Positions 7,248-10,368 of a stretch of 64,000 bases of DNA are shown here, one piece after another. The notes below the pieces were generated by a model. That model ran no database searches. It had not been told where the DNA came from and saw nothing but the letters and a program-made list of their open reading frames with translations. The translations under genes and the position numbers were made by a program. Every line of letters begins with the position of its first letter. The stretch's first letter is position 1. Origin of the DNA: an uncultured Coriobacteriaceae bacterium (GTDB lineage Bacteria > Actinomycetota > Coriobacteriia > Coriobacteriales > Atopobiaceae); the NCBI GenBank assembly GCA_902788705.1, contig CADALE010000001.1:1-64000 (forward strand). The letters run 5' to 3'.

Positions 7248-7337
7248 GTCGGAGTGGCGGAATTGGCAGACGCGCTAGCTTGAGGTGCTAGTGCCTAATC
7301 AACGGGCGTGCGGGTTCAAGTCCCGCCTCCGACACCA
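7248..7337 (+). tRNA. tRNA-Leu (anticodon GAG)
   Basis: The acceptor stem GTCGGAG pairs with CTCCGAC, followed by discriminator A and an encoded CCA. The anticodon stem CTAGC/GCTAG encloses the loop TTGAGGT (anticodon GAG, reading CUC). A long variable arm and a T-loop GTTCAAGTC complete a class II tRNA. Confidence 0.95.
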
Positions 7338-7479: not shown

Positions 7480-9306
7480 ATGGCAAACACAGACGACATG
7501 GTGCCGCGGGTCGAGCACGAGCGCGTGGTGAGCGAGCTCAGGCGTGCCAACCACCGGCTTTCGGGCACCATCAACATCGTTCTGGCCACGCTTGACTCCG
7601 AGGACGTGGGCACGCTGTTCACGCGCGTGCTGGAGGAGATAACCGACACCATCGAGGCCACGGGAACCCTGGTGTACCTGGCCGAGCCCGACGGATACCA
7701 CCTGCGGGGCGCCAGTAAGGGCGTGGGCGGCCTGCGCGTGCCGCGCTTCATTCCCTTCGACCGTGCGATCGACTCGGTGACCACGCAGGCACGCGGTGCT
7801 GTGCGTCTTCGCGTGCAGACGCCCGACCGCGAGCAGCTGCGCCAGGGGCGCCTGAGCGAGCGCGAGGTGCTGGACGAGGGGTCCCAGCTTTCGCAGCGCA
7901 TCCCCGTTGACCTGCTGCCTCCCTTCGCGAGCTTCTATGCCGTGCCCGTGTGGTTTGGCAGCCAGGTGGTGGCCCTCATCGAGGTGGGGTGGACGCGCCA
8001 GCACCCGCTTGCGCAGGATGACGCCGACCTGCTGGACTCGGTAGCCCACTACCTGTCGGTGCAGCTTGTGGGTGCGTTCTCGGCCTTTCGCACCCAGCGA
8101 GAGGGGCGTCTGCGCGAGGCGTCCTCGCAGATCCGTGAGGAGCTGCTGGCCCACGACGAGCTAGCCGAGGGCGATGTGCAGCTTGCCTTTGCCCATGCCG
8201 CCACCATGGTTTCGGCGGTTGCCGTGCCCCTGCACGAGAACGCCTACCAGCGCATCATGATGGCCGACCTGCCAAACAGCGGCTCCCAGGTGGTGCCCCT
8301 CGACCTGTCTGGGCTTGCGCCCAACGGTGGCGAGGCCGAAGGCGTGGGCATCGCGCCAATAACGGATGGCTCGAGCCTTCATGAGTGGCTGCACGGCCTT
8401 GGCGAGCCCTGCATCGGCGCCGTGGTGGACGCGGGCAAGGTTGCCGGCGCTCGCCGGGCCTGCATGTTTCTGCGCGCTGCCGACGACGAGCCCTTCGACG
8501 ACCTTGACCTTGCCTTCCTCCAGGGCGTGGCGCACGACCTCGTGGTGGCAGCGGCGGGGGAGGAGGCCCGCTCGCACGACAGGCGCATCTCGCAGGCGCT
8601 GCAGACGGGCATGAAGAACCAGCTGCAACGGGTTGACGGCATCACGTCCGAGGGCCTGTACTCGTCGGCCACTGCCGCGGCCACGGTCGGGGGCGACTTC
8701 TACGACCTCATCCGGCTGCCGGGACGCCGTGCCTGCGTGATCATGGGCGATGTGTCGGGCAAGGGCGTCGAGGCCGCGTCGGTGTCAGCCGCGGTGCGCA
8801 CGGCGCTGGGCGCCTACTCGTGGGAGGGCCTGCGGCCGGCCCACATGGTTCGTCTGCTGAACGACTTCCTGCTGGGCTTCTCGCGCCTGGAGACGTTTGC
8901 CACCCTGTTCGTGGGCATGATCGACCTGGACAAGGCGTCGCTCACCTACTGCTCGGCTGGGCATCCGCCTGCGCTGCTGCTGCGCGCCGCTGAGGCCGAG
9001 CTCGTGCCGCTGGATGTGCAGTCGGGCGTGGTGGGCGCCTTCCCCGAGATGCGCTATCGCGATGGGCATACCACCCTGACGAACGGTGACGTGCTGCTGC
9101 TGTACACCGACGGCACCACCGAGGCCCGCGCGACCGACGGCCGCTTCTTTGGCGAGGACGGCCTGCGCGACGCCGTGATGCGCCACGCCTCCGATGGGGT
9201 GCCGGGCATCTGCCAGGCGCTGCTGGGTGAGCTTGACGCCTTTACCGACCGCACGCTGGAGGACGACGTGGCGCTCGTGGCGCTGCGCTTCGACGAGGTG
9301 GGCTAG
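7480..9306 (+). CDS. SpoIIE/RsbU-type PP2C serine phosphatase with GAF-like sensor regions
   Basis: 608-residue protein predicted to dephosphorylate a STAS-domain anti-sigma antagonist. The N-terminus (about 10-30) looks like a short coiled coil. Two GAF-like regions follow (about 35-200 and 220-385), and the C-terminal ~210 residues are a PPM/SpoIIE phosphatase. Metal-binding motifs visible there are GGDFYD, GDVSGKG, YTDGTTEA and DDVALVALR. The frame is open upstream through the tRNA, but the ATG at 7480 follows AAGGAG and matches where the protein-like sequence begins. The next gene, 81 bp downstream, encodes a STAS-HATPase fusion, its likely substrate or partner. What signal the GAF regions sense is not evident. 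No sigma factor gene is nearby. Confidence 0.85.
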   Translation: MANTDDMVPRVEHERVVSELRRANHRLSGTINIVLATLDSEDVGTLFTRVLEEITDTIEATGTLVYLAEPDGYHLRGASKGVGGLRVPRFIPFDRAIDSVTTQARGAVRLRVQTPDREQLRQGRLSEREVLDEGSQLSQRIPVDLLPPFASFYAVPVWFGSQVVALIEVGWTRQHPLAQDDADLLDSVAHYLSVQLVGAFSAFRTQREGRLREASSQIREELLAHDELAEGDVQLAFAHAATMVSAVAVPLHENAYQRIMMADLPNSGSQVVPLDLSGLAPNGGEAEGVGIAPITDGSSLHEWLHGLGEPCIGAVVDAGKVAGARRACMFLRAADDEPFDDLDLAFLQGVAHDLVVAAAGEEARSHDRRISQALQTGMKNQLQRVDGITSEGLYSSATAAATVGGDFYDLIRLPGRRACVIMGDVSGKGVEAASVSAAVRTALGAYSWEGLRPAHMVRLLNDFLLGFSRLETFATLFVGMIDLDKASLTYCSAGHPPALLLRAAEAELVPLDVQSGVVGAFPEMRYRDGHTTLTNGDVLLLYTDGTTEARATDGRFFGEDGLRDAVMRHASDGVPGICQALLGELDAFTDRTLEDDVALVALRFDEVG

Positions 9307-9387
9307 CGCGATCTTTCGCGACGACGCGCGCATGCAGAGTGTGTGACCAAGGTGCATAGCCTGCGCCAAGTTGGGAACAAACCCTGT

Positions 9388-10113
9388 ATGGCCAACTCGT
9401 CCCACATAGCACTCGTGCCCATCGACGGCGACCTTGACGTGACCACCGTGCCAACGGTGCGGCACACGCTTGACTCCCTCATTGACTCGGGGTGCCGACG
9501 CATCGTACTGAACCTGGCTGCCACCACCTATGTCGACTCTGCGGGCATGGGGCTCATTGTGGGCGTGGTGCGACGGATGCGGCAGCGCGGGGGGCTGGTG
9601 TCGCTTACCAACGTGTCGGCGTCGGTGGCCAGGGCGCTCTCCATCGCGCGCATCGTCGACTTCGTTCCCATCTCCGAGCTGGGAAGCCATCCACAGGTTC
9701 CCGAGCTGGCTGTGGGCACGCTGCCCATATGGCGCACCGTGCTGCGCATAGACCCCCACAACCTCTCGAAGACGCGTGCCCATGTGGCGCACCTGATCGA
9801 CCGCATGCCCTTCACTGCCGACGAGGCCTTCGACCTTGGGCTGGCCGTAGGCGAGGCCATCGGCAACGCGGTTGACCATGCCGGCGGGTTCGCGCTGGTG
9901 GAGGTCTCGTGCTTCCGTGACCGCGCGGTCATCGAGGTGAGCGACTGTGGGCAGGGATTTGACACGCGGCAGTGCGCGAAGGCTGTCGAGCCCGATGCCG
10001 AGCGGGGGAGGGGCATCTCGCTGATGCGCCTGCTTGCCGACTCGGTGGAGATTGCCCCCAAGCCGTCGGGAGCGGGCACCTGCGTGCGCATCGTGAAGCT
10101 ACTGCCGCGATAA
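9388..10113 (+). CDS. STAS anti-sigma-factor antagonist fused to RsbW/SpoIIAB-type HATPase kinase
   Basis: 241-residue two-domain protein. Residues 1-100 are a STAS domain of the RsbV/SpoIIAA type with the phosphoacceptor region YVDSAGMG. Residues about 110-241 are a GHKL ATPase of the RsbW type: N-box EAIGNAVDHAG, G1 box DCGQGFD and G2 box GRGISL. In the classical module these are separate proteins, the kinase phosphorylating the antagonist. Here both are in one chain next to a PP2C phosphatase gene. A GTG at 9343 is in frame, but the ATG at 9388 sits right before the STAS fold. It may control a sigma factor encoded elsewhere or a non-sigma target; neither is shown by the sequence. Confidence 0.85.
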   Translation: MANSSHIALVPIDGDLDVTTVPTVRHTLDSLIDSGCRRIVLNLAATTYVDSAGMGLIVGVVRRMRQRGGLVSLTNVSASVARALSIARIVDFVPISELGSHPQVPELAVGTLPIWRTVLRIDPHNLSKTRAHVAHLIDRMPFTADEAFDLGLAVGEAIGNAVDHAGGFALVEVSCFRDRAVIEVSDCGQGFDTRQCAKAVEPDAERGRGISLMRLLADSVEIAPKPSGAGTCVRIVKLLPR

Positions 10114-10207: not shown

Positions 10208-10283
10208 GCGGGCTTAGCGCAGTTGGTAGCGCGCCACCTTGCCAAGGTGGAGGTCGCGGGTTCGAACCCCGTAGCCCGCTCCA
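10208..10283 (+). tRNA. tRNA-Gly (anticodon GCC)
   Basis: Acceptor stem GCGGGCT/AGCCCGC, anticodon loop TTGCCAA (GCC), T-loop GTTCGAACC, discriminator T and encoded CCA. Confidence 0.96.
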
Positions 10284-10294
10284 TGCATCACCAC

Positions 10295-10368
10295 GGCGAC
10301 GTGGCCAAGTGGTAAGGCAGAGGCCTGCAAAGCCTTCATCTCCAGTTCGAATCTGGACGTCGCCTCCA
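10295..10368 (+). tRNA. tRNA-Cys (anticodon GCA)
   Basis: Acceptor stem GGCGACG/CGTCGCC, anticodon loop CTGCAAA (GCA), T-loop GTTCGAATC, discriminator T and encoded CCA. It is 11 bp after tRNA-Gly and probably co-transcribed with it. Confidence 0.96.

Follow-up and report, generated by a model that had tools for sequence, protein, structure and literature searches.

Two neighbouring genes of an uncultured Coriobacteriaceae bacterium raise the question of what a partner switch controls when its antagonist and its kinase form one protein and no sigma factor is encoded beside them. In the window, the whole 64,000-nucleotide stretch of DNA that was analysed, two intact plus-strand genes occupy positions 7480 to 10113: a GAF-GAF-PP2C phosphatase gene of the SpoIIE/RsbU type (7480 to 9306; ATG start, 608 amino acids), with AGGAG just 5' of its ATG, and directly downstream of it a gene that joins antagonist and kinase in a single STAS-HATPase chain (9388 to 10113; 241 amino acids). 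The first possible start of the fusion is a GTG at 9343, from which fusion residues are numbered here. However, the ATG at 9388 appears better placed, because relatives start there and a conserved element lies upstream of it. The gene pair is framed by tRNA genes: tRNA-Leu(GAG) (7248 to 7337) closely precedes the phosphatase gene, and tRNA-Gly(GCC) (10208 to 10283) and tRNA-Cys(GCA) (10295 to 10368) closely follow the fusion. About 14 nt inside the fusion gene, a stretch of rare codons, CATAG(C) (approximately 9402 to 9409), was kept at the DNA level in 28 of 32 aligned Coriobacteriales loci, in an alignment anchored on CATAG(C) itself.

Both parts of the fusion carried the residues expected of a working switch protein. 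The STAS domain (9397 to 9675, plus strand) matched PF01740 (5.3e-17, 63.9 bits) and the anti-sigma antagonist family TIGR00377 (6.9e-19, 67.7 bits against a cut-off of 53.45), and the solved sequences closest to it were those of SpoIIAA. The Asp-Ser codons of its phospho-acceptor motif V-D-S-A-G lie at 9535 to 9540 (plus strand), with the codon of S66 at 9538 to 9540, and D65-S66 was invariant in 50 of 50 fusions from across the class. With a profile score over the cut-off and the D-S motif in place, the domain is predicted to be an antagonist of the RsbV/SpoIIAA type. Likewise, the HATPase_c_2 domain (9751 to 10098, plus strand; PF13581, 2e-18, 68.8 bits against a cut-off of 27.4) has a complete N box (EAIGNAVDH), G1 (DCGQG) and G2 (GRG), and is a predicted kinase of the RsbW/SpoIIAB type. 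The possibility that this kinase is dead was rejected, as every motif residue (E171, N175, H179, D201, G203, G205 and G222-R223-G224) was invariant in 50/50 fusions. The fusion was modelled with AlphaFold at a mean pLDDT of 88.6 and a pTM of 0.71; the model does not fix how the two domains sit with respect to each other. In it, the kinase superimposed on Bacillus subtilis RsbW with a Z score of 16.5 and an rmsd of 1.3 over 101 residues, and on the kinase domain of Mycobacterium tuberculosis Rv1364c with a Z score of 14.2.

The upstream gene product matched GAF_2 (1.4e-8) and, far more strongly, the SpoIIE/PP2C family (2.9e-47, 161.5 bits against a cut-off of 25). The metal-ligand motifs of PPM phosphatases were all found (GGDFYD, GDVSGKG, TDG and EDD), and D406, D424, D544, D595 and D596 were invariant among 16 relatives. 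A SpoIIE match over the cut-off, together with these metal-binding Asp residues, points to an RsbU/SpoIIE-type PPM phosphatase. The AlphaFold model placed a second GAF-like domain at residues 230 to 360, before a long helix leading into the phosphatase domain, and Foldseek alignments to proteins with several GAF domains likewise extended over about 400 columns. Among solved structures, the best Foldseek match of the phosphatase domain was the RsbU domain of Rv1364c (3ke6). An earlier, sequence-only reading of this DNA had described an RsbW-type kinase with its ATPase residues, fused to a STAS domain and lying beside a GAF/PP2C phosphatase. That description held on each count: Pfam and the open reading frames put both domains in a single uninterrupted frame, the kinase residues are conserved as given above, and the SpoIIE gene is immediately upstream, with a SpoIIE gene lying upstream in the relatives read as well.

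The survey of Coriobacteriia that the same reading had suggested was carried out on 197 genomes of the class. The fusion protein was found in 152 of them at E ≤ 1e-5, and about 146, or roughly three quarters, were counted as carriers (matches at E of about 3e-18 or better). A scan of named genomes located it in Olsenella, Atopobium, Thermophilibacter, Tractidigestivibacter, Collinsella and Anaerosomatales. The idea that a sequencing error or a frameshift had merged two genes was rejected, because the fusion occurs over the whole class. A tree of 32 fusions tracked the families overall, with f3 sitting inside f1, as expected for mainly vertical inheritance. In every branch read, a SpoIIE phosphatase gene lay upstream of the fusion, and its sensor domains varied (GAF-GAF or PAS-GAF in Coriobacteriales, HAMP plus three GAF domains in deep families). 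No other neighbour was conserved over the whole class at the fusion loci read. In two genomes of different families, a gene of the cation-efflux (CDF) type lies between phosphatase and fusion (L072:6500-7429 and L078:4002-4937); the CDF-type domain was confirmed by Pfam in the former only.

As for the output of the switch, the sequence-only reading had noted that no sigma factor is linked to the pair, and had proposed searching the genome for one of the SigB or SigF type. None is indeed encoded locally, but the search found one elsewhere in the genome: of three matches to sigma region 2, one belongs to the SigB/SigF/SigG family (TIGR02980, 2.5e-86, 289 bits against a cut-off of 234.35) and lies on contig C6. 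In this respect the genome appears to hold what a canonical SigB/SigF switch has, a sigma factor of the SigB/SigF/SigG family. The factor belongs to a cluster recognisable in other families, rarA-DUF948-rsbW'-sigma-(permease)-alaS, in which rsbW' is the small gene before sigma. No locus read showed linkage of the fusion to sigma.

Fusion and sigma factor nevertheless occur together. At thresholds of E ≤ 1e-17 for the fusion and E ≤ 1e-60 for sigma, 142 of the same 197 genomes encoded both and 47 neither, with four carrying only the fusion and four only sigma (Fisher p of about 8e-36, a value that ignores shared descent). The joint absences comprised mainly all 32 genomes of family f2, which by elimination is probably Eggerthellaceae, plus f6, f7 and one f4 genome; the association thus rests largely on one clear joint absence, that in f2, with these few others. 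Among the exceptions, genome G061 has rarA and the permease gene 128 bp apart with nothing between them, and an intact fusion and phosphatase (L180, L182); this is a true, clean loss of sigma and RsbW' with the fusion kept. The fusion-only genomes G121 and G125 are 85% and 74% complete, respectively. Genome G130 was rejected as a case of sigma loss: rarA is absent too, and the assembly therefore probably lacks this stretch. In G017, sigma and RsbW' are present and the fusion is absent. From the overall pattern, the fused switch probably controls the cell's single stress-type (SigB/F-type) sigma factor.

A second connection to sigma may lie in front of the fusion gene itself. Of 30 Coriobacteriales loci, 29 had the element GGG[AC]A[CTG][ACT]A at a fixed distance from the fusion ATG, where 0.06 would be expected, and 21 of the 29 had [AT]TA 14 to 16 nt upstream of the GGG element, with almost none at other distances. 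Promoters of the SigB family have the form GTTTAA-N12-14-GGG(A/T)A(A/T), and that of SCO5749 in Streptomyces coelicolor (SCO5749p) reads GTGTAG-N14-GGGAAC (PMC8346170). The site in the window, GCATA-N14-GGGAACAA (9354 to 9380, plus strand, about 10 nt before the fusion ATG), matches both the family consensus and SCO5749p and is a putative SigB-type promoter; if it is used, the transcript would be near-leaderless. The motif was not found at the sigma operon, nor before the fusion in deep families, and a genome-wide count of the pattern in the bacterium's own genome gave two matches against two in the control. With the own-genome count equal to the control and the motif not found at the sigma operon or in deep families, the case for this promoter is wholly one of comparative conservation. 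A regulon prediction from the pattern was dropped, because the count equalled the control and the second match was not convincingly placed before a gene.

These results bear on the suggestion, made in the sequence-only reading, that the output may be something different. Several partner switches outside Gram-positive bacteria have non-sigma outputs, and the STAS domain here might likewise control an enzyme, a transporter or a cyclase. The lack of a sigma factor linked to the fusion, the retention of an intact fusion and phosphatase in G061, which has no SigB-type sigma, and the cation-efflux gene found between phosphatase and fusion in two genomes would all fit such an output. However, the co-occurrence of fusion and sigma over 197 genomes, the SigB-type promoter before the fusion and the want of any other neighbour conserved class-wide speak against it, and we consider an output other than sigma very unlikely. 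The suggestion is weakened by the co-occurrence and the promoter, and it keeps some force through G061, given which there may be another output, or one additional to sigma.

If sigma is the target, an anti-sigma factor has to be accounted for. The product of rsbW' (L056:5831-6217 on contig C6; 128 amino acids) scored 17.6 bits against HATPase_c_2, below the cut-off, while its family profile matched B. subtilis RsbW at 1.1e-12. It was encoded immediately before sigma in all 41 sigma loci examined (L056, L084-L103 and L106-L125). In every one of them the N-box Asn was replaced (by Tyr in 34, Phe in 5, Leu in 1 and Gln in 1) and neither a G1 nor a G2 motif was found; the Glu at the catalytic position was kept in 41/41. 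The ordinary reading of such a protein is an anti-sigma factor unable to act as a kinase, an apparent pseudokinase. By alignment, the M. tuberculosis anti-SigF chain 8jzt_B is also without the N-box Asn. RsbW' thus seems to have lost its kinase motifs, a loss that does not prove loss of kinase activity or nucleotide binding, since a 2008 paper on the mycobacterial protein announces novel nucleotide binding in its title. Because RsbW' lacks the N-box Asn and the G boxes, the likeliest enzyme for the phosphorylation step is the fused kinase. In the canonical switch one protein, encoded beside sigma, is both anti-sigma factor and active kinase; the predicted arrangement here is a different one, because RsbW' is without the motifs and the intact kinase lies in the unlinked fusion.

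The fused HATPase could instead be the anti-sigma factor itself, holding sigma for as long as the attached STAS carries its phosphate, and giving it up when the dephosphorylated STAS displaces sigma; RsbW' would then be a chaperone or a heterodimer partner, like RsbW3 of Mycobacterium smegmatis. Indeed, the kinase domain aligns best with the true anti-sigma kinases RsbW and SpoIIAB, and it keeps an invariant Arg, R145 (position by alignment), in the helix through which SpoIIAB contacts sigma. Rv1364c is also reported to bind SigF in vitro. Against this, it is RsbW' that stands directly before sigma in 41/41 loci, the usual place of a cognate anti-sigma factor, whereas the fusion was unlinked at the loci read, and G061 keeps the fusion without sigma. 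An anti-sigma role of the fused HATPase is therefore judged unlikely, and RsbW' is preferred as the protein that would hold sigma.

Further switch proteins are encoded in the same genome. A stand-alone STAS protein of the RsbV type lies on contig C17, between a TPR-type gene and tat genes and unlinked to the fusion. Every sampled genome of f1 and f3 has such a gene and those of f2 have none, which is the pattern shown by fusion and sigma within Coriobacteriales. The C17 protein could be the real antagonist of RsbW'. A second partner-switch set is present on contig C2 (L053:5710-9861), with a SpoIIE-HATPase fusion of 873 amino acids, a STAS protein of 100 amino acids and a protein of 393 amino acids combining STAS with an APH-type phosphotransferase domain. 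On contig C32, a stand-alone HATPase_c_2 protein of 141 amino acids with complete motifs (L054:9867-10292) is encoded downstream of a lysyl-tRNA synthetase-like gene.

The stand-alone STAS protein allows yet another scheme, in which the fusion is an upstream kinase acting in trans on it and the fusion's own STAS domain is a sensor or docking part. This would agree with the shared family distribution of the two proteins and with CapK, which has the same STAS-then-kinase order and a substrate in trans (PMC13373217). However, the D-S motif of the fusion STAS is invariant, although a domain with only a sensory role could do without it, and the C17 gene is unlinked to the fusion; a trans kinase of this sort appears quite unlikely. 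What is shared with the CapK/CapS system is a STAS domain joined to the N-terminal side of a SpoIIAB-type kinase (PMC13373217). In contrast, CapK (HTH-STAS-GHKL) begins with an HTH and acts on a DNA-binding STAS protein encoded apart from it (CapS, a STAS-wHTH repressor), and the system sits with immune operons and is not paired with a phosphatase as here. No HTH was found in the fusion and no CapS-like neighbour at its locus. A role as an anti-phage defence regulator was rejected, PADLOC having given no match.

Among sigma-directed switches, the domain families and residues are the same as in RsbU/RsbV/RsbW/SigB and SpoIIE/SpoIIAA/SpoIIAB/SigF of B. subtilis. There, however, RsbW or SpoIIAB is kinase and anti-sigma factor at once, and antagonist and kinase come from separate genes, both beside sigma. 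Rv1364c of M. tuberculosis (PAS-PP2C-RsbW-RsbV in one chain) is closer in having kinase and STAS in one polypeptide with the phosphatase in the same unit, and it is reported to autophosphorylate and autodephosphorylate its STAS domain (PMC7693655, PMC10950880). In architecture, the locus appears to resemble it in that one chain holds both kinase and STAS and a PP2C phosphatase goes with it. The order PP2C-kinase-STAS within one protein is not found here: STAS comes ahead of the kinase in the fusion, and the phosphatase, with its GAF sensors, has a gene of its own. In the SigF switch of M. smegmatis, the anti-sigma factor RsbW1, encoded beside sigF, is distinct from RsbW2, the kinase of the antagonist; rsbW2 shares an operon with rsfB, which encodes the antagonist and comes first (PMC7693655). 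The roles are split as proposed here, and rsfB (STAS) followed by rsbW2 (kinase) is the same order as in the fusion; the difference is that RsfB and RsbW2 are separate, whereas here they correspond to one chain, class-wide, with no kinase gene beside sigma.

Taken together, we lean slightly towards reading the gene pair as the regulatory half of a partner switch for the SigB/F-type sigma factor, in which the fusion captures the dead-kinase RsbW' and sigma is freed. At rest, the fusion HATPase would phosphorylate the conserved STAS serine S66, its own or that of a dimer partner; phosphorylation of its own STAS in cis is plausible, with Rv1364c as a precedent. The phosphorylated STAS would be unable to bind the anti-sigma factor. 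The kinase activity is placed in the fusion because RsbW' has lost the ATP-binding motifs. On a signal detected by the GAF sensors of the phosphatase, the PP2C domain would remove the STAS phosphate, and the free STAS would then capture RsbW' and release sigma. Sigma would in turn raise transcription of the fusion through the SigB-type promoter, forming a feedback loop. The full scheme, a class-wide switch with a dead-kinase anti-sigma factor, a self-phosphorylating antagonist-kinase that captures RsbW' according to its STAS phosphate state, and SigB-type feedback on its own gene, is put forward more tentatively, at somewhat less than an even chance.

Chains containing kinase and STAS are known from Rv1364c and CapK, as is the split between anti-sigma factor and kinase from M. 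smegmatis. The combination of a class-wide STAS-kinase fusion, an unlinked sigma factor with a motif-less RsbW and their joint absence from a family was not found in the literature searched, and these searches returned no description of a general stress switch in Coriobacteriia (Collinsella, Olsenella, Atopobium). Members of this class are common in the gut and the mouth. If the proposal is true, they would offer a simple natural case in which the roles of kinase and anti-sigma factor are fully separated and the encounter of kinase and antagonist is fixed by covalent linkage, and the dependence of partner switching on competition between free proteins would become testable. It would likewise provide a concrete gene list for finding the sigma regulon, and would explain why one family of the order, probably Eggerthellaceae, lacks both sigma factor and switch.
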